DNA from: Pelotomaculum isophthalicicum JI
Lineage (GTDB): Bacteria; Bacillota; Desulfotomaculia; Desulfotomaculales; Pelotomaculaceae
Direction of reading: 5' to 3'
DNA length: 64,000 nt
Assembly: GCF_029478095.1 (NCBI RefSeq)
Contig: NZ_JAKOAV010000006.1
Coordinates: forward strand, 62,001 to 126,000
The stretch's first letter is position 1. Each line of letters opens with the position of its first letter. The position numbers were made by a program, and so were the translations under genes. This document shows positions 34,639 through 44,640 of this stretch, one piece after another. The notes under the pieces were generated by a model. That model was given only the letters and a program-made list of their open reading frames with translations. It had not been told where the DNA came from and searched no databases.

Positions 34639-34786
34639 TATTCTTACCCCCTTTGCACTTGTTTGTGATTTATATGCTACCATATTTTAGCAAACCTAAT
34701 ATTTAGCTATATTTGGTCAATAATTACCAATACAATAATTTAGCTCCTTTTTACTTCTGTTTTTATATATACAACTTTGTCGTTGA

Positions 34787-34829
34787 CGCCCCTTGAGCAT
34801 ATAATACGGCTCATGTTCGGCGTTTAATG
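34787..34829. repeat. Dispersed ~40-bp repeat, copy C
   Basis: The core TTGAGCATATAATACGGCTC leads into ATGTTCGGCG. It is the most diverged of the three copies (others at 6557 and 31294). Confidence 0.55.
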
Positions 34830-34860
34830 TCCTAAGCAATAATCTACTATTATCTATAAA

Positions 34861-34915
34861 ATTCAAAACCCCCGCCGTTATTCCAGGCAGGGGCTCACTA
34901 CAAAGATATTCACTT
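34861..34915 (-). repeat. Second copy of the gyrB-terminator sequence
   Basis: On the minus strand CCCCTGCC and GGCGGGGG arms are followed by TTTTGAATT, a terminator-like hairpin. The following bases (CTCACT....AGATATTCACTTTT) match the sequence just after gyrB at 44581-44640. The two copies bound the accessory island. Confidence 0.6.
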
Positions 34916-34937
34916 TTAAAACTATCGGTTTACACAA

Positions 34938-34994
34938 AAAATGAAACTCAAGCTAAGGAGCCCATAGCTCCTTTTCAAACTAGCGTTTCATTAA
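34938..34994. repeat. Imperfect inverted repeat
   Basis: AATGAAAC...AAGGAGC and GCTCCTT...GTTTCATT form a two-part hairpin with unpaired middles. It may be a terminator or the end of a small mobile repeat. Confidence 0.4.
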
Positions 34995-35507
34995 AAATGA
35001 ATTTGTTGGTGTAATAGATAAAATATTATTAATTCTTTTTAATAAAACAATATTACTCAAAAAGCCCTGAACCTTGAATACCTCCAAAACGCTATAAGGC
35101 AATATCGGCAAAAGCAACGATTAAGCGACTAAGTATTTATTCTTATCAACGAGTTACATTTGCCGGCCAATCATTGGCTGTAGACAGGACGAGCTAAAAG
35201 CTTCAAGCCATTCAAATAGTGGTATATCCGGAGCAAGGCATACCCCAAGAAACTGGACAAGTTGTATCTTCAAGAATAGTTACATATCTTCTGTGTATTG
35301 AACTCTATTAATGTCTGAATTAGAGCCGATAGGTGAGGTTGGCTTCTGCTCTAACCACCGCAACAGCAAGTTCAACATCCATTTTTTATTCTATCCTGAA
35401 AATTAACTACCGTAACGAATTGTAAAAAACAATAACAAACCAACCCAACTTCATAATAAAAAAATACGAAATCAGGAAACAGAAGGATGAAGGTATAAAA
35501 CAAAAAA
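34995..35507. other. AT-rich spacer without recognisable genes
   Basis: About 500 bases between the hairpin and the transposase. A 35-codon open stretch near 35208-35310 (IVVYPEQGIPQETGQVVSSR) looks protein-like but has no start and no recognised family. It may be a remnant. The 3' end of the IS110 element should lie in this stretch but was not located. Confidence 0.4.
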
Positions 35508-36517
35508 CTAAGCTACTGATTCAACGGTGACCTTGTACCCAAGGGATTCCAGTTTCTTAATGGACTGTCTGATGACAGTGTCACGCTTACGTTCTTCATA
35601 ATAAGTTGGACCAAGCTCAATATAAGGTTGCTTTCGCTTAACAATGTAGTAGGCAATGGTTAGAATACTATGGGCAACTGCAACAGCGGCACGGTTCTTT
35701 CCACGTCTTGCAGCAAGACGGTGATACTGACTGGACAAATAGGTATTCTTAGTTCGGCCAGCAGCCCTGGCTGCTTCTACCAGCGCACTTCTCAGTTCCT
35801 TGTTACCCTTGCGCGTTCGTCCCGACTTTCGTTTTCCGGCGCTTTCATTGTTTCCTGGAGACAACCCTGCCCACGAACACATATGAGCAGCGGAAGGGAA
35901 TTGGTCCATATCGGTTCCTATTTCGGCTAAAATTTGCTCAGCCGTGCGCCGACCCACTCCGGGAATGGTATCCAGCAACTCCAGGTCTTCGTCAAAAGGG
36001 AGCATTCGCTCCTTAATCTCTTCGTCTAGTTGTTTGATTTCGTCTGCCAGAAAGTCGATGTGACGCAGTTGGGTTTTAAGCATTAGCTTTTGGTGGTGCC
36101 CGATTAGACCATTAAGTGCCCGCTGCAATTCTGGCTTCTTATTCTTGAGTCTGCGCTGAGCCAACAAGGAATGTAACTGCCTTGCAAGAGGCCGTGACGG
36201 AGCAAACCGGCAATCCATTCAGCATCTTTAACATCGGTTTTGCGCCCAGGGACATTTTTCATATGCTTGGCATTGACCACCAAAGCCTGGATGTCTTCCA
36301 GTTCCAACAGGTTGAAAATGGGCTTCCAAAACGAACCGGTGCTTTCCATTGCCACATGAGTACAACCTTTGTCTTTTATCCAGTCCACCATGGAAATGAG
36401 GTCATCCGTCATCGTTGAAAATGTGCGAATCTCTTTTCCCTCAGGAATAATAACACAGGCTACAACAGTCTTTTTGTGAACGTCAAGGCCGCAGCAGTGG
36501 CTGTATACGACTTCCAT
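35508..36517 (-). pseudogene. IS110-family transposase with internal deletion and frameshift
   Basis: The first frame (from ATG 36517) has the DEDD/RuvC-like domain: GLDVHKKTVVACVI, AMESTGSFWKPIF, GRKTDVKDAEWIAGLLRHGL. The second frame (from about 36185) has the Transposase_20 half: LLDTIPGVGRRTAEQILAEI, SWAGLSPGNNESAGKRKSGR, RRGKNRAAVAVAHSIL. Joined, the reading is about 335 residues against roughly 400 for the family. The region between QGSYIP and LAQRRLKNKK, which normally carries the RELTRYR-type linker helix, is missing. A deletion near 36170-36185 that also shifted the frame explains this. The enzyme is probably inactive. Confidence 0.85.
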
Positions 36518-36760
36518 CTATTGCTCCTTCTACGGCAATTAAATTGAAGGGCTGGTGCAACAACCATCAATGATTATTCTATCCTGCGTGCTTCCCGGAT
36601 GGGAGCAACAATCTGTGGTGCACCTGGTCGTTGGGGTCTGTCTATTTAACGGGCTCGTGGCACCAAGAAAACACGACCTCCCTTCGCCAGCCGTAAAGAA
36701 AAAGATTCTATGCGGCTCTATTTTCATCCTTCTGCTGGTGCTGCGTTAGCAGCATGTTTG
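36518..36760 (-). mobile_element. IS110 non-coding end, candidate bridge-RNA region
   Basis: This is the ~240-base non-coding stretch 5' of the transposase start. In IS110-group elements the corresponding non-coding end encodes the bridge RNA that pairs with target and donor DNA. The stretch contains several short self-complementary segments around GGTGCACC (36617-36624) and GGGCTCGTGGCACC. The outer boundary is not defined; I saw no terminal inverted repeats, as is usual for IS110. The RNA itself is inferred from family knowledge. Confidence 0.45.
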
Positions 36761-36822
36761 TCTCTTTAGAAAAAATAAATATAATACACTTGTTAGTTGT
36801 TAATAAAAAATTATGGTTATAA

Positions 36823-38133
36823 TTACCGTAAAATATTAACTGTTATCTTATTAAGAATCCTCAAGAACCACGTAGAAATATCTCCTGAAATTATTGCGAT
36901 GTCCTGGTTTAGCCAATCTTCGGCATTGACATATTGCGGGGAAATACCGTAAGGAAACGTAAGCACTATTTTGGGTTTTTGATCGTTCATTTTCCAAATT
37001 GATTCAAAATCTTTCAAGTAACCTATAGCCTTGTACAAGCTGTCGCTGCTATAGCTGGATTCGGGTTCGGTGTTTTTAACTTCTACAATTAATCGAATCT
37101 CTTTAGAATTCTCGCGAACTTTAATTCGGACAGCAACATCAGGTCTTCTGGACGTACCAGACAAGCCATTGTAAAGATTTAAAAGAGTTTTATATAGGCT
37201 TCCAGTCACACCTACATCGAATAGGTTTTCAGGTGAACGGTTGAAACTAACTTCTCCAACCCAATTGTCACCCTCAATTATCGCCACTAGACGTGAACCA
37301 TCTCTTCGCACGAGACCAAATCTTGATTTTTTAGTAAGAGCGGATCTACTAAAGACAAATTCTTCAACGGAATTAATGACGCTAACCAAAACGAATAACT
37401 CGAAAAGATAGTCTGTATTTCTTTTCAATAACGGTGCAAGCCAGCCAACAGCCAACATTTCCTTTATAGCTTTCAGGTCTCTTTGAAGTATGGCCTTCTC
37501 GTACTCGACCCATAACTCATGTAGACGAGCATACAATTTACGCCGATTGCGGGAGGTTTGCGCGATCATTCTAGCCGTGGCTTCCGTTGTCGTTGTAATG
37601 TTTTTCAAATATGTAGAAGAGAGCATTTCTTCGCATGAAACTAATATCTCGGACAGCAAACGTATGTCTTCGGTCTCTCGCCCGCGATATGACCTCGCCT
37701 TATTGAAGACTTCTTCGACGTATAACTTGAGTAACATATTTTCCGGGGTGTTCGGTGTTTTAGAAGGGCAGTCAAGCACGAATACTTGATTGTCACGGCG
37801 CCACCTTCGTTCGATAATTGTCCTTTCCCATAAAATTCGCCCCCTAGGCTTCCTGTCACGTAATAGACGTGATTCTCTGGCTCGGGTCAGCGAAGAAAGT
37901 TTTCCAGGCGCCTCCTCGACGAGAAACTGTTGTGCTCCTTCAGTTCGCGAGATATGGTATAAAAGGGCTAACCATTCAATGTCGTTAGGAGACAAGGTTA
38001 GGGCCTGGAGAAAGTCTAATATTTCGTTTTCGTTTCCGGGCAAGTTCTTCCATAAGGAATCGAGACGAGCAAACAAGTACCGCTTTACTTCAGATTCCCA
38101 ATGCTCCGGCGTATATACAAAACTCCTACTCAT
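36823..38133 (-). CDS. PD-(D/E)XK nuclease subunit, McrC/LlaJI-R2-like
   Basis: From the ATG at 38133 the product is 436 residues. The C-terminal third has the nuclease core RRPDVAVRIKV...IRLIVEVKNTE, i.e. PD...(D/E)XK with EVK. The N-terminal 300 residues are helical with no recognised motif. In McrBC and LlaJI-like systems such a protein is the nuclease partner of the AAA+ subunit. The ATG lies one base after the motor gene's stop, with CGAGG just before, so the two are coupled. The MTase gene upstream in the same operon suggests a restriction role. The assignment is by core motif and context. Confidence 0.72.
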   Translation of the reverse strand: MSRSFVYTPEHWESEVKRYLFARLDSLWKNLPGNENEILDFLQALTLSPNDIEWLALLYHISRTEGAQQFLVEEAPGKLSSLTRARESRLLRDRKPRGRILWERTIIERRWRRDNQVFVLDCPSKTPNTPENMLLKLYVEEVFNKARSYRGRETEDIRLLSEILVSCEEMLSSTYLKNITTTTEATARMIAQTSRNRRKLYARLHELWVEYEKAILQRDLKAIKEMLAVGWLAPLLKRNTDYLFELFVLVSVINSVEEFVFSRSALTKKSRFGLVRRDGSRLVAIIEGDNWVGEVSFNRSPENLFDVGVTGSLYKTLLNLYNGLSGTSRRPDVAVRIKVRENSKEIRLIVEVKNTEPESSYSSDSLYKAIGYLKDFESIWKMNDQKPKIVLTFPYGISPQYVNAEDWLNQDIAIISGDISTWFLRILNKITVNILR

Positions 38134-38134
38134 T

Positions 38135-40036
38135 TTACCTCGTTTCACCCGCGGGAATGGCCCCAGTCCAAGAACTTAAGCTTCGGTCTAGCTTATCTCT
38201 ATCATTTGGTTGTTCAATATTTAGAGCGTCAGCAAGTTTTTCAAAGAGAAATTTATGTTCTTTCCGCTGTGATTCGAACTGTGGAAATAAGAACATTTCC
38301 ACAGCTTCTAACGTTAAAAATCTGGCGTCATTAACCTCATTTGCCTCAAAATGTATTCTGGTTTTCAAATAATTTATAACGTCCAGAGGAATTGACGCGC
38401 CTACAGGTTTGTTGATGGCGTGTAAGCCTGTAGTTTCGTCCGCGAACACCCGTAGCAGTAACTCTGTAATTTGTACCCACAAGGTGTTATCCTCAGGTTG
38501 AGAAGCACCTTCCGCTGCAGACAAGGTTATTGTGCTATTAATAATATCCCTACATTCTTCTGGCGAGGGCGCAGGAACCTCTACGAACGCGAATCGTCTC
38601 ATGAATGCGTAAGACAATTGGTAAAGGGCCGCCTTGTCGAACGTATTCATGGTTCCCATAATTCTCCAATCATCCTTTTTCTCATAGACCACATATTCCT
38701 CTTCTTCGTAATCTTTGTCATTTTCAACTTTGAGAACTATTTTCTTTGTACGCCCAATGGGATCTCCCGCATCGTTATATTCTTGGAAGCTTTGGGGCAA
38801 AACCACATCCTTACCCGCGAGGAAGGTAAACAGCTCTCCGAATGCTTTGTCAACATCAGACCGGTTAATTTCGTCTATGATGAGCCACTCGTTGTCACTT
38901 AATGCACGCGTGACTAAGCCGGGAGAAAAAGTTAATCTTTCAGGTCGTTTCAGGTCCGGCATGTACCCACCTATGACTTCGTGCGTAGTCCAGTCGGAAG
39001 TTGCGGTATAAAGCTTATAAGAGTTTCCTTTACACCTCTCAGCAATGCGTTTAGCCAAAGTCGTTTTTCCCGTTCCGGGGGGTCCGATTAATATGAGGTG
39101 ACTTCCACTTTGCAACGCCGCCAATATACGACGAATGACCTCTACGTTAAATGGCGGATTTCCAACTACGTCATCTGGGTTCGGCCATTCTACGTCAGTA
39201 TCATTAGTTTCTTCTTGGACATCTTCTATTTCAACATTGTTCATAAGAGATCCGAGGTCAACTAGCATCTCATTTTCGGCATTGTCCGCAATAGACCTGA
39301 AATCTACAACTGGCATTTCGTTAGTTAACAGGCCTTCCTCCCTCCAGTCATGCTGGCTTGCGGTCGAATTCTCTATTAAATATTCACTTAATTCTTCAGT
39401 CAAAAACTCGCCGAGAGCCAAAAGAAGACCCGTTGAAAAGTTGGAAGAAACATGTGGGCTTAAATCACGGAATCTTAATAAGTACACAATTAACGGAAAA
39501 AAATCATTTCCACATTCACGAATTTCCATAAATTTTAAAAGGTTAGATTTCCAATTCGGATGCTTCCCTGCACTCCACTTATCAGGACCAACACCCAAAA
39601 TCATAATTGGAGCCGGGCGGCTACTAGGATATGGTATCGGGCTGGCCGCGACAGAAGCTTTTTTTAAAGGTTGTGTCAAGAAATTGCTACTAAAAGCCTT
39701 ACTTAAAAAGCTCCTAGCATTTTCCCCATCGACATGTGTGACGCCAAATTCCCTCACTACTAAATCTTTGTCTTCTTGTCTAAGAGATGGCATGAACAGA
39801 TCTACGTATTTGGCGGTCATAATTTTTCGTGGTGTAATTCGCCCATCTCTCGAACGTTTCGGGTGTAGGTCTACTACCGAATTTCCAACTATTTTCTGAG
39901 TTATGTCCAAAGAAAAAAAAGCACCGAAAGCCGTTGTCCGTTCAAGATTCGTCTTTCCATATCTTTGCTCTTCTCTAAGATTTAAAGACTTAAAGTTATT
40001 TAATATGGTTTCGCTGGAAAAATATAAAAGAGTCAT
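38135..40036 (-). CDS. McrB-like AAA+ NTPase, restriction motor subunit
   Basis: The C-terminal half of this 633-residue protein is an McrB-type AAA+ domain: Walker A ILIGPPGTGKTTLAKRIAER, Walker B WLIIDEINRSDVDKAFGEL, and the sensor segment IMGTMNTFDKAALYQLS followed by AFMRRFAF. The N-terminal ~290 residues are unlike any domain I recognise and may read DNA sequence or methylation state. McrB motors translocate DNA with GTP. Here the gene overlaps the C5-methyltransferase stop (ATG/TGA sharing 40036) and precedes the nuclease gene, as in LlaJI-type systems. Confidence 0.82.
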   Translation of the reverse strand: MTLLYFSSETILNNFKSLNLREEQRYGKTNLERTTAFGAFFSLDITQKIVGNSVVDLHPKRSRDGRITPRKIMTAKYVDLFMPSLRQEDKDLVVREFGVTHVDGENARSFLSKAFSSNFLTQPLKKASVAASPIPYPSSRPAPIMILGVGPDKWSAGKHPNWKSNLLKFMEIRECGNDFFPLIVYLLRFRDLSPHVSSNFSTGLLLALGEFLTEELSEYLIENSTASQHDWREEGLLTNEMPVVDFRSIADNAENEMLVDLGSLMNNVEIEDVQEETNDTDVEWPNPDDVVGNPPFNVEVIRRILAALQSGSHLILIGPPGTGKTTLAKRIAERCKGNSYKLYTATSDWTTHEVIGGYMPDLKRPERLTFSPGLVTRALSDNEWLIIDEINRSDVDKAFGELFTFLAGKDVVLPQSFQEYNDAGDPIGRTKKIVLKVENDKDYEEEEYVVYEKKDDWRIMGTMNTFDKAALYQLSYAFMRRFAFVEVPAPSPEECRDIINSTITLSAAEGASQPEDNTLWVQITELLLRVFADETTGLHAINKPVGASIPLDVINYLKTRIHFEANEVNDARFLTLEAVEMFLFPQFESQRKEHKFLFEKLADALNIEQPNDRDKLDRSLSSWTGAIPAGETR

Positions 40037-41250
40037 TAAGCTTCACCTACAACTTCGAAATTTAGTTCCAGATTCTCATAACGGATTAACTCTTTAACGT
40101 TTCTTTTTTCTGGCGGGTAGTCAAATAATATCTCGGGGTCTCCAGGCCTAATTGGCTTCTTATTTAAATTCAATTTTGAATATTGTATAAGAGGCGCTCC
40201 AATCATTTCTTGGCGACCCTCTAAAATATGTAAAAACATATCGGCAAACGCTTTAGCTAGCCTTGGCGCAACAGCATTGCCTATCATCTCGTAGATTGCT
40301 TTCACACTGCTACCTCGGAATACAAATGTATCCGGAAAAGACTGTATTCTTGCAATCTCACGTGCCGATAGCACACGGTCTTCGATGGGATGCCAGACGC
40401 CGGCGTTTTCCGGCTTAAATGCTGCAGTAACTGTTCCAGCCACTTCGTTTCGCGCAAACCTTCTGTAAAAATTTGGCCAACGATATTTTCTCATGTTGTC
40501 CCTAATCCTTTTTAGCCGATCCGGCAACAAGTCGTATGGAATGTCCTTCCAAGATCCACCTTCTGGAACTAGGCTTCCAAGATACACCGCTTGGGGGTTT
40601 AGTTTTAAAAGATCATTTTGGTTTGGGGTTTCAGGTGAAACATTAAGGCAAGACCCCAGGGTCAAATCCGCTCCGATTACAGGCGAGGGGAAACGGAAAT
40701 CTCGTTCTTTGAAGTTTTTCGCTACAGCTACAATGATTATTCTTAGTCTGTTTTGCGGAACTCCGTAGCTTGCCGCGTTAACCAGTTTAAAATGCACCTC
40801 ATAACCGCTGTCAGTTAAACTGGAGCAGATATCCTCGATAAGTCTAACGCCGTTTTGATTTCGTATGGTTAACAATCCACGCACGTTTTCAAACATCACT
40901 ATCTTTGGTCGCAATACGTCAACGTACCGGAGGCATACTTCGAAGAGCCGCCCCCTAGAGTCGTTAACACCTAATCTCTTCCCAGCGTTCGAAAACGGCT
41001 GGCACGGGAATCCAGCTGTCAGCACGTCCAGGCCATCTATTTCTGGTATGTTAAACGTAAAAATGTCACCTTCGTTGATCTTTCCGATGTTTTGGCGATA
41101 AGTTAAGCAAGCATCCGGATTAATGTCGTTAGCCCATACGATGTCGAAGCCAGCTTGGACAAATCCGAGGTCAAGACCTCCACAACCACTGAACATACTA
41201 AGAACCGTTGGTTTCTTTTTTAATATCCGATTTGTTAAACACCGAACCAT
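40036..41250 (-). CDS. C5-cytosine-specific DNA methyltransferase
   Basis: From the ATG at 41250 the product is 404 residues. The ordered m5C motifs are present: I (FSGCGGLDLGF), IV (GFPCQPFSNAG with the catalytic Cys), VI (ENVRG), VIII (PQNRLRIIIVA), then a target-recognition region (about 210-310), IX and X (GNAVAPRLAKAFADM). It methylates cytosine at C5 to protect host DNA from the coupled AAA+/nuclease pair. AGGAGA precedes the ATG; the in-frame GTG upstream lies inside that site. The catalytic residues look intact. The recognition sequence is unknown. Confidence 0.93.
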   Translation of the reverse strand: MVRCLTNRILKKKPTVLSMFSGCGGLDLGFVQAGFDIVWANDINPDACLTYRQNIGKINEGDIFTFNIPEIDGLDVLTAGFPCQPFSNAGKRLGVNDSRGRLFEVCLRYVDVLRPKIVMFENVRGLLTIRNQNGVRLIEDICSSLTDSGYEVHFKLVNAASYGVPQNRLRIIIVAVAKNFKERDFRFPSPVIGADLTLGSCLNVSPETPNQNDLLKLNPQAVYLGSLVPEGGSWKDIPYDLLPDRLKRIRDNMRKYRWPNFYRRFARNEVAGTVTAAFKPENAGVWHPIEDRVLSAREIARIQSFPDTFVFRGSSVKAIYEMIGNAVAPRLAKAFADMFLHILEGRQEMIGAPLIQYSKLNLNKKPIRPGDPEILFDYPPEKRNVKELIRYENLELNFEVVGEA

Positions 41251-41331
41251 TTTTTTTAGTTCTCCTCTCACAAAATGAAATATATGTGCTACTATTTTGA
41301 TTAGGTACTGTTAGGTGGTGAGTAAGATAAG

Positions 41332-42000
41332 ATGCTAGATTTACCAAAAAAACGCGCGTTTCAGGTCAGACTTCGAAAATGGTGGCAAAAAAGCAAACGA
41401 GATTTCCCGTGGAGAAAAACGCTAAACTCTTATGAGGTCATTTTGTCGGAACTACTTCTGCAAAAGACTGCAGCTTACAAAGCAGTCCACGCATATCGCG
41501 TCATGATAGAAAAATAACCCACAGCACAGGCTTTAGCAGATGCTCAAACAGACGATATAGAAAAAATAATATATCCCTTGGGTTTGGTAAAAAGAGCTAA
41601 ACTTATTAAAGAATTCGCTAGAGTTTTAGTTGCAGAATATGGCGGTAAACCGCCGACTGACAAGAAGGCCATCCTAAATTTACCTGGAGTTGGCCCGTAC
41701 ACAGCCTCCGCCGTTCTATGTTTCGCGTACGGCAAGAGAGAAGCGATTTTAGACACTAATGTAGAAAGAATTTTGTCCAGATTCTTCGGAATATCTCATG
41801 GCCTTACAGGTACACGCAGATATTCCGTGCTTTGGGAAGCTTCGCGAAAACTTTTGCCAAAAAAGAATTTTCGCGAGTTTAACTGGGCTCTTTTAGACTT
41901 TGCCGCCCTCGTTTGTACTTTTAGTAAACCGAAATGCCTTCGTTGCCCGATGAAAAACCTTTGCGCATTCATTGAAATCAATAAAAGTCAGATTTCATAA
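41332..42000 (+). pseudogene. HhH-GPD DNA glycosylase (MutY/Mig-like), cut by an in-frame TAA
   Basis: One frame runs from ATG 41332 to the TAA at 41998-42000, broken only by TAA at 41515-41517 (context IEK*PTAQALA, where KYPT would be normal). The rest fits a base-excision glycosylase: FPWRKTLNSYEVILSELLLQ, helix-hairpin-helix LPGVGPYTASAV, catalytic-Asp segment ILDTNVERI, and the 4Fe-4S pattern C-x6-C-x2-C-x5-C near the end. The Tyr in GVGPYTA is as in Mig-type T:G mismatch glycosylases. These are often encoded beside m5C methyltransferases to repair deaminated 5mC. It is divergent from the methyltransferase. Confidence 0.8.
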
Positions 42001-42038
42001 AACGTGGAACAGTTTCTCCTCTTGATTTTATCAGCGGC

Positions 42039-43343
42039 TTAACGTATACTAGAAAGCTCTTGCTTAAGAGAAAGGATTCTGCCCAACAAAGATTTTTTTG
42101 GTTCATCTTCATCACCGAGAACTAGTTTTGAAAGATGGAAATAATCTTTTTTAGACATAGCTGAAATGTGAGCATTTTTATTTCTAAAGCTGCTGACTTT
42201 TATAATATTTTTGGGCAATTCACACATAAGGAATTCAACCATTTCGGGCGTTAGCCCGACAGCGTCAAAGTCATCGTTTACGCCATTGTGATCGCCAAAC
42301 AGTAATATATGTGCGATTTCGCCCAACATGACGCCTCCTAACTGTGGCGATCCCGACTTTTCTCGCCTATTTAAGTTAACTTTGCGTCCCTTTGCATTCG
42401 TGAATATGTTAACTTCCTCCGAGTGATGTCTTAAAGTGACCCACGGATCGTCGTTAACTATGTTTCGACTTCTTCGCAGGTGACAAATTATTGACGCGTT
42501 TAATTCTCTCTCTATAGCTTTCCAAACGCCACTTCCCGGAAGCGAATAGTCAAACTCCTTGATTAAATTTTTCGAAGCAAAGATCTCGACATTCTTCGAC
42601 GACACCAAAAATTTTTTTGTTTCTTCGTCCATCACATTTCCTAAGTCTTCTACTATGCTAGGCAAGATAATACCGTTATCAGGAAGTCTTTGAGTAGATT
42701 CGAATAGTGACTAGTTTTCATTGAGCAATTTCTCTTCAAATTCTTCTATAGCCCTTTCAAATTGCAGGTCTCCTAAATTTTCTAGGGCTTTAGACAATAA
42801 TTCTTCTCTCCAACGTTGAGTTTTTTCCGTTCCGCCGAAGAAAATTTTAATACTGTCATCGACAGCTTTCTGGTTTTCTTTCTTAACATACACGTCATGA
42901 AAAAAATTTATTTCAGTGATTGAGCGACTTAAACATATAACCTGAGCACGTGGCGTCAATCCCTTATTACGGCTAGAAAAAGTGTAGTTATTATAACCGG
43001 ATAAAGGAGTCCACGGCTGGGTAATCTTACCCCTAATATTTTTTAAATCATAATTTAGTTCGCTATCCAAGAGTTGACTGTTTGAGTTTTTAATACAGTT
43101 TAACGGAACGACGAGTACTTCATTTGGTTGGTCAGTTAAAAACAAACAAAGCCAAATATCTTCATTCTCTCTCAGATGAGTTGGTACAATGCTCGCAATA
43201 CTCTCTTCTCCTTCGATTCCTTTAATATCAGAAAGCGCACTTTTTAATTGAAAAAATTTTAACAGGAGATTAGCAATTTCACTTTTTTGCTTCTTGTAAA
43301 GTAGCACTCCTGCTATTGGCCATTTGTCTATTACGTTTGTCAC
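42039..43343 (-). pseudogene. Unrecognised island gene split by an in-frame TAG
   Basis: Two frames, 42711-43343 (GTG start with AGAGGTG upstream, about 210 residues) and 42039-42665, lie in the same phase. They are separated only by TAG at 42711-42713 and 15 open codons (SLFESTQRLPDNGII..). The second has no good ribosome-binding site, so one gene of about 434 codons is the simpler reading. Part 1 has no recognised domain. Part 2 ends with SSFRNKNAHISAMSKKDYFH, an R-x4-H motif as in HEPN domains, many of which are RNA-targeting defence or toxin proteins. Alternatively these are two coupled genes. The product's role in the island is unknown. Confidence 0.55.
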
Positions 43344-43584
43344 ACTTAAAAACACCTCTTTGGGTTGCCGTTAGGATGACGCCTAAAGCTTCTAAACTTT
43401 TTCCGGCATAAAGTCTTTTATATAATTATAGAACATATGTTCGTTTATGGGAAGGGGTTTTTATTATTAATTTTAGTTTTTATTTAATTACCGGTAAAAA
43501 GTAGAGCATTCCTTAGATCTATCCTACCGCAAGTAAAAAAATCCTCTCTGACTACTATTTATCTCATATCAATTAACGAGGCCT

Positions 43585-44202
43585 CTATAGGTCTAACGCC
43601 AAATGTACTATCTTACCCAGAAGGCGAACCCGTTCAATATTTAAAAACTCCTCTTCTCCGTTAAAAATAAAACACAAATGAAGTTCACCGTTTAATTCTG
43701 TCACTTCACCGACCCAAATCCAGTCGTCACAGAGCAAAAAAGCCGCTAAATCACCCTTACACACTTTACTCGTCTTATACACAAGAAGTCGAGTACCGCG
43801 TTTTATCCATCTGCAGCCCTCTACATTTGCTACCCATATGTATTGACCCTTGGACAAATTAGCTCCTGCAGCAACGACCGCTCCAAGTGATTCTAAAGTA
43901 TAACTAACATCATCAGAATTAATTCTATTTTGATACATTGGTATGTAAACAAATTCCCGTGGCCTGCCATAGACTCGACCCCATTTTATCAAATCGTCAA
44001 TTTCAATTAATGACTCGAGCAAATCCTCAATATTTATACCCAAAGACTCTGCGAGGGTACGAATTTTTTTTGCCCTAGGAACTCTGCTATCGTTTTCATA
44101 TCGACTTATTTCATATTTTGATACCCCTATTTTTATTCCGAGCTCCGTTTGAGTGAGCTTTTTTTCTTCGCGGGCTTTTCTAATTATTGTTCCTAACGTC
44201 AT
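43585..44202 (-). CDS. XRE-family regulator with degenerate S24-like C-terminus
   Basis: The 205-residue protein has an N-terminal HTH (about 4-60: TIIRKAREEKKLTQTELGIK, SKYEISRYENDSRVP). Its C-terminal domain resembles the LexA/CI S24 fold (YIWVANVEGCRW, then KGDLAAFLL). The catalytic Ser expected in the (E)GDSM position is replaced (GCRW), so self-cleavage is unlikely. It probably acts as the control protein of the island. A perfect palindrome lies 14 bases upstream of the start. Everything downstream on this strand up to the methyltransferase could be its target. Confidence 0.78.
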   Translation of the reverse strand: MTLGTIIRKAREEKKLTQTELGIKIGVSKYEISRYENDSRVPRAKKIRTLAESLGINIEDLLESLIEIDDLIKWGRVYGRPREFVYIPMYQNRINSDDVSYTLESLGAVVAAGANLSKGQYIWVANVEGCRWIKRGTRLLVYKTSKVCKGDLAAFLLCDDWIWVGEVTELNGELHLCFIFNGEEEFLNIERVRLLGKIVHLALDL

Positions 44203-44215
44203 TTAATTACCGCCC

Positions 44216-44251
44216 AAGTTGACAATTAGTCAAATAACTAATTGTCAACTT
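44216..44251 (-). promoter_or_regulatory. Perfect palindromic operator upstream of the XRE regulator
   Basis: Arms AAGTTGACAATTAGT and ACTAATTGTCAACTT (15 bases each, exact) flank CAAATA. On the minus strand a TATAAT lies just upstream (44253-44258), so a dimer bound here would block initiation. Autorepression is inferred. The spacer beyond (44259-44580) is very AT-rich and shows no gene. Confidence 0.75.
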
Positions 44252-44580
44252 TAATTATATAAAAAATCTTTGGTGATCTTAAATTTTTGTAATCATTAAG
44301 TCAACAATACATCTACAGAAATCTAATATTCTTCTATTAAATTTTAACATTACTACCACAACAAATCAATACTGTCAAGTATTAATAAGGTGGAATAATA
44401 CTTATACATGTTGTTTTTATTTAAATTTCAATATCTTAAAAAATAAAGCTTAATTTTTTATATAATTTTTGAATAAAAATCCCGCTTAAGTGGATTAAAA
44501 GATAACAAAGATATTATATCGATAATTCTTAATTTTTTCAGGTCTTTCTTAAAATTTTCATTCAACCTTATTTTAATTAA

Positions 44581-44640
44581 ATAAAACCCCTGCGTACATG
44601 CAGGGGTCTCACTTCTAAGAGATATTCACTTTTGGAACAA
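44581..44640 (-). terminator. Terminator of gyrB with repeated flank
   Basis: On the minus strand CCCCTGC and GCAGGGG arms enclose ATGTAC and are followed by TTTTATT. The bases between gyrB and the hairpin (AGATATTCACTTTT) recur at 34861-34915. Confidence 0.8.

Follow-up and report, generated by a model that had tools for sequence, protein, structure and literature searches.

The three intact genes on the minus strand at 36823–41250 of the window, the whole analysed stretch of 64,000 nucleotides from Pelotomaculum isophthalicicum JI (contig NZ_JAKOAV010000006.1), encode a C5-cytosine DNA methyltransferase (MTase), a McrB/MoxR-type AAA motor and a PD-(D/E)XK nuclease. The operon is probably a motor-driven, that is nucleotide-driven, restriction-modification (R-M) system of chimeric origin with a single MTase, whose m5C mark protects the host. 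At the sequence level, it looks like a LlaJI-type head and MTase set on a chassis that is otherwise found in stand-alone, Type IV-like pairs. The head and the MTase resemble those of one LlaJI-type operon (locus L098), and the motor core and nuclease resemble another chassis; the parts thus point to different histories. The simplest account would be an exchange of the head, or of the chassis, between two systems that both carried a C5-MTase of the one subgroup.

The consecutive genes code for proteins of 411 (MTase), 633 (motor) and 441 (nuclease) amino acids. The MTase gene (40036–41250, minus strand) has AGGAG upstream of its ATG at 41250, with an alternative GTG start possible at 41271. Its stop overlaps the start of the motor gene (38135–40036, minus strand) in TAATG, and the TAA of the motor is followed after one base by the ATG (38133) of the nuclease gene (36823–38133, minus strand; alternative GTG start possible at 38148). 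The first-pass annotation, made from the letters alone, had described one coupled operon, and these junctions confirm it. The C5-methyltransferase that it placed in the operon was equally well founded, with a PF00145 match at E 8e-75 and the PCQ and ENV motifs present as FPCQPFS and FENVRG.

The MTase belongs to a small subgroup. It is 52% identical to the MTases of G921 and of a Staphylococcus epidermidis plasmid, 51% to those of L098 and of a Fructilactobacillus sanfranciscensis plasmid, and 50% to those of G263 and of a Ruminococcus phage. The target-recognition region (aa 184–290; 40402–40722, minus strand) is common to these six, at 48–58% identity and 54% for L098. On the other hand, the other C5-MTases of the LlaJI-type loci and of loci L012 and L016 are 25–37% identical to the window MTase, and none of them matched the target region at E up to 1. 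With a threshold of E 1e-70, this rare subgroup was found in one of the 397 other phylum-sample genomes and in one of 230 of the class of G404. Beyond the subgroup, the target region has weak plasmid matches in Neisseria gonorrhoeae (31%), Rhizobium (40%), Sinorhizobium (38%), Agrobacterium (37%) and Sedimenticola (44% over part), and some of these lie beside known kinds of enzyme, of the NotI family in Sedimenticola and NgoFVII-like by eye in N. gonorrhoeae.

Each of the six other subgroup MTases found adjoins a putative restriction module of two genes. The partners are a PF10117 McrC with a motor in three cases, a LlaJI system in one (L098), and in G263 and G921 a protein of 464 or 472 residues (36% identity between the two) together with a small protein of weak likeness to nucleases (PDDEXK_3 at E 0.03 in G263, by eye in G921). 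With the window chassis, putative restriction modules of four kinds thus accompany this MTase subgroup: McrBC, LlaJI, the window type, and the 464/472-residue protein with its small nuclease-like partner. The MTase tree joins L098 to S. epidermidis (96/93) and the phage to G263 (99/99), and the kind of partner thus does not track the branching of the MTases; the whole subgroup including the window has weak support (50/30). In identity, the L098 MTase stands nearer to the S. epidermidis enzyme (68%) than to the window enzyme (51%). The last of the four modules, seen at L093 7930–10977 and L113 6357–9479 as a subgroup C5-MTase, the 464/472-residue protein (no Pfam match for the L093 copy) and the small nuclease-like protein, is possibly an undescribed kind of R-M system.

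The motor carries at its N-terminus a head (about aa 1–245; 39302–40036, minus strand) that is the presumed DNA-recognition domain, is absent from the libraries, and presumably reads a defined DNA site. Motor residues 1–289 had no match in Pfam, the EVE, SRA and YTH readers included, and none in PHROG, in agreement with the earlier remark that the first ~290 residues match no known domain; the case raised against that reading, a known methyl-reader at this N-terminus, found no Pfam match for aa 1–289. Relatives of the head were absent from the plasmids and viral contigs, and from 111 other genomes of the class sample, same species apart. A homologue was found in the motor head of L098 (L098:5240–6973; genome G562 of the same phylum), with 30.5% identity over 190 residues at E 8e-20. 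The alignment score is 202, whereas 500 shuffles averaged 37.5 and never exceeded 65, and of the 36 other heads or head-like proteins in the comparison L098 alone matched. The suggestion that the recognition domain may be new thus stands as far as the libraries go; it is not unique, having this relative. The head link is that of one pair, window and L098: nine other LlaJI-type heads compared showed no homology, and the head profile found G562 itself only in 36 genomes of the family of L098. Against the PDB the profile gave nothing significant (best E 0.67), and the single-sequence structure model of the head (pLDDT 33.5) was too poor to use. A resemblance of the start of the head to the S. epidermidis, F. 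sanfranciscensis and Ruminococcus-phage heads was considered and rejected (z 0.8, 2.1 and −1.5; no match by hhalign); those three heads form a separate family.

L098 is a LlaJI-type operon by its RE_LlaJI nuclease (E 1e-102), its motor core in the LlaJI clade and its gene order. Like the window, it has the homologous motor head, an MTase of the same subgroup and motor, nuclease and MTase in one run, and in both methylation would protect. Unlike the window, its motor core lies in the other clade and its nuclease is RE_LlaJI; the order is motor–nuclease–MTase in L098 and MTase–motor–nuclease in the window. Twelve loci were examined from the 15 RE_LlaJI matches. At least one C5-MTase was present in 11 of the 12, not always two, compared with two in LlaJI itself and one in the window operon. 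Adjoining the LlaJI-type operon, L098 7522–10986 encodes a divergent C5-MTase of 622 aa and a 490-aa protein with a close counterpart in L055 (14103–15587); they seem to be a separate system common to L098 and L055. A LlaJI-like operon with two MTases is also described in Clostridium cellulovorans (PMC11779793).

LlaJI is reported to restrict unmethylated DNA, with the R1 subunit alone setting the specificity (PMC1459862), and a review assigns the recognition of its site to a B3 domain (PMC12707154). Because of this behaviour of LlaJI, we hypothesize that the head in the window reads an unmethylated target and that methylation protects. The MTase would put m5C on its target in host DNA, and the motor head would bind the unmethylated form of that target on incoming DNA. 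There the AAA ring would assemble and move DNA at the expense of GTP or ATP, and the PD-(D/E)XK partner would cut. We infer that the head and the MTase read the same site and that the motor uses nucleotide; that methylation blocks cutting would follow by analogy with LlaJI. The S. epidermidis motor head is unrelated to the window and L098 heads despite its subgroup MTase; thus, a subgroup MTase can go with another kind of head, and a common target for head and MTase is a presumption. The protective role of methylation claimed in the first-pass annotation is therefore favoured by the homologous LlaJI-type head in an operon with an MTase of the same subgroup, and the polarity itself should be read as an inference.

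The motor has GPPGTGKT, LIIDEINR, TMNTFDK (the NxxD signature) and MRRF. Its earlier description as McrB-like is supported by AAA_5 at E 9e-21 and this signature. On the other hand, its best match by sequence in the PDB is midasin (E 2e-23), ahead of the McrB proteins of Thermococcus (1e-12) and E. coli (4e-10), so that McrB-like refers to the signature and the partner nuclease and not to a proven ancestry. In a motor-core tree of 32 rows, for which the tool warned of long branches that meet, the window belongs to a clade of 18 rows (100/99), and the ten LlaJI rows (100/99) and four McrB rows (97/88) group separately. This tree held 16 of the 22 paired relatives and the lone motor L017, without the LlaJI rows L099 (split motor) and L101; a second tree (29 rows, one of them LlaJI) recovered the same clade.

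The paired relatives come from 23 loci with a relative of the nuclease, in 22 of which a related motor lies directly beside it; the exception is L013, with an IS5 gene upstream of the nuclease. The window nuclease falls in the same profile family (A1) and its motor core in the same clade as these unnamed pairs, such as those from a Priestia megaterium plasmid (L012), haloarchaeal plasmids (L014/L015) and 18 genome loci, which differ from the window in having other heads and no contiguous C5-MTase. The signature is NxxDK in the motors of 21 of the 22 relatives (L058 is outside the pattern), NxxDQ in the 12 LlaJI-type loci and NxxDR in three McrBC-type motors; since a McrB-like ORF of 916 residues in L102 also has NxxDK, the lysine is not exclusive to the chassis clade. 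By scanning the N-termini of 19 of the 22 paired motors (L014, L070 and L066 were left out), EVE was found above the curated cut-off in five (L056, L057, L059, L062 and L065), and no other modified-base reader reached its cut-off. With the window MTase as sole query, a C5-MTase lay within ~6.5 kb in three of the 23 relative loci (L012, L016 and L055) and was contiguous in none; a very distant C5-MTase could escape such a search, and the surroundings of L058 and L059, near contig ends, are incomplete. In L012 the C5-MTase adjoins an NgoFVII-family enzyme and Vsr. L066 (2548–9052) has a window-type nuclease, an almost headless motor and two small upstream genes, as well as two divergent amino-MTase-like ORFs (by motif only), and is perhaps another R-M system on the same chassis.

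As the chassis relatives are mostly without an MTase and some carry EVE, modification-dependence is the more usual setting of this chassis. The operon might then combine a Type IV, modification-dependent pair with an MTase that is unrelated or was merely co-transferred; the head would read a foreign modification and the MTase would serve another end. The 20 of 23 relative loci lacking a C5-MTase within ~6.5 kb, and EVE in five of 19 N-termini, speak for this explanation, which we nevertheless consider unlikely, because in the window the MTase stop overlaps the motor start, because the head is neither EVE nor any other library reader, and because its homologue sits in a LlaJI-type system, the prototype of which is described as restricting unmethylated DNA (PMC1459862).

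E. coli McrBC (Type IV) shares with the window an AAA motor, a PD-(D/E)XK partner and the NxxD signature; the window differs in a motor core that stands apart, the lack of a PF10117 match, its own MTase and the lack of a recognised methyl-reader. McrBC systems usually lack a cognate MTase, and here the MTase overlaps the motor gene. The three operons that join a subgroup MTase (50–52% identical to that of the window) to McrBC, on the S. epidermidis plasmid NZ_CP121512, on F. sanfranciscensis pLS2 and in the Ruminococcus phage NatCom_2329, are like the window in having the MTase near motor and nuclease, with a transposase between MTase and motor in S. epidermidis. They are unlike it in their PF10117 McrC nuclease, a motor core that groups with E. 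coli McrB and the other head family. The NxD branch of the CoCoNuT systems has NxD in its GTPase (PMC11090510), whereas the window has NTFD, that is NxxD; the same census mentions a McrB branch linked to predicted DNA methyltransferases and postpones its description to a further publication (PMC11090510).

The operon lies in an island of ~9.8 kb (34769–44581) between gyrB and gyrA, with a GC content of 0.405 compared with 0.454 outside. The island is missing at this place in the same-genus genome G001, where ~86 bp separate the two flanking blocks of homology (up to 34768 and from 44582 in the window). Divergent from the MTase is a gene for a T/G mismatch glycosylase of the Mig type (41332–42000, plus strand), 38% identical to Mig of the Methanothermobacter thermautotrophicus plasmid pFV1 (E 9e-45) and 42% to a protein of the Caldicellulosiruptor plasmid pCALKR01 that is also divergent beside a C5-MTase. 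All three proteins have the tyrosine of GVGxYT, which distinguishes Mig from MutY and endonuclease III; the nearest NCBIfam model is mutY, below its cut-off. Mig repairs the T/G mismatches that arise from deaminated m5C, and the gene therefore fits an m5C-making MTase. An in-frame TAA at 41515–41517 breaks it in the window and in L009, a record of Pelotomaculum sp. PtaB.Bin013 with the same genes and identical translations, whose coordinates match genome G495 of the same species. Elsewhere in the island are a 208-aa protein without a family match (42039–42665, minus strand) with the R-x4-H motif RNKNAH, as in HEPN nucleases (by eye), a 214-aa protein that matches no Pfam or NCBIfam family (42711–43355, minus strand), and an HTH regulator (43585–44202, minus strand) that matches the CI-like phage repressor family phrog_4 over nearly its full length (E 2e-15) and may control the island.

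In L009 (4711–7912) the motor frame follows that of the window up to residue 473 and then continues into ORFs resembling, by eye, an IS200/IS605 pair; the ORF list of this contig holds no nuclease ORF. A misassembly at the repeat may be the cause. Taken with the stop in the glycosylase, present in both records, the interrupted motor may otherwise mean decay: a decaying island, in which the MTase may still act and restriction is lost or being lost. An IS110-family transposase adjoining the operon (35508–36517, minus strand), split into two overlapping frames and probably a broken copy, would accord with this view. All three operon genes of the window are open and keep their motifs, however, and we regard decay of the system as improbable, slightly more so than the Type IV explanation.

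The active site of the nuclease, RPD (335–337) and EVK (356–358) in the GTG numbering, is retained in at least 92% of the 24 nucleases compared, the window nuclease among them, and the PD-(D/E)XK assignment of the first-pass annotation is upheld by this conservation. There was no match in Pfam, NCBIfam or PADLOC, with RE_LlaJI and McrC included (PF10117 at E up to 1), and the profile had no match in the PDB; the single-sequence structure model was poor (pLDDT 40.5). The nuclease of the chassis is thus a family without a Pfam model. Its relatives were found in five plasmid records, of which the near-copy H4 was left out, and in one of the 397 other phylum-sample genomes, and by profile in 20 of 397 genomes (order of G404); 18 of these 20 neighbourhoods were added, G846 (a fragment with two stops) being excluded and G404 already in the set. 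By comparing profiles, the family gave a weak match to the LlaJI nucleases (probability 50%, 64 columns) and a weak one to the McrC type (probability 5%, E 0.009) that spans the PD...EVK region, whereas the LlaJI and McrC profiles link to each other at 95%. RE_LlaJI (PF09563) matched neither the window nuclease nor anything in its own genome, with a positive Bacillus subtilis control. Hence, the LlaJI-like label given at first fits the logic of the operon and not its parts, the motor core also falling outside the LlaJI clade. A diverged LlaJI system of the ordinary kind, whose parts were all inherited as one set, would share its gene content and its homologous head and MTase with L098. It is made very improbable by motor cores that separate at 100/99 and by the lack of RE_LlaJI in a genome searched with the same model that finds it in 13 of 249 genomes (order of G404); the 64-column nuclease match is too weak to change this verdict.

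The viral contigs held no relative of the nuclease or the head, of their profiles, or of the L098 head; 12 viral loci were found by the motor profile, one by the MTase and at least 80 by the MTase profile. In 93 viral loci, among the best matches listed, the target region, either head family and the window nuclease family were all absent, and among the matches listed for the same loci a LlaJI-type nuclease occurred in three and a McrC-type in one.

Returning to the chimeric R-M system, we tentatively propose, at somewhat less than an even chance, that the head sets the polarity of McrBC-like machines, that this chassis was made into a methylation-blocked R-M system by a LlaJI-type head and its matching MTase, and that the MTase subgroup circulates among at least four modules. 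A head exchange between such chassis is not reported in the accessible parts of the literature on LlaJI and McrBC, EVE, methyltransferases and domain swaps. The apparent joining of a methylase and a recognition domain of one system type to the motor and nuclease of another, little-studied type suggests that the parts are exchangeable. Modification-dependent and modification-blocked relatives of McrBC may form a continuum, as suggested in a review (PMC3874153). If true, a natural exchange of heads between a LlaJI-type motor and an EVE-bearing chassis would make this continuum directly testable.
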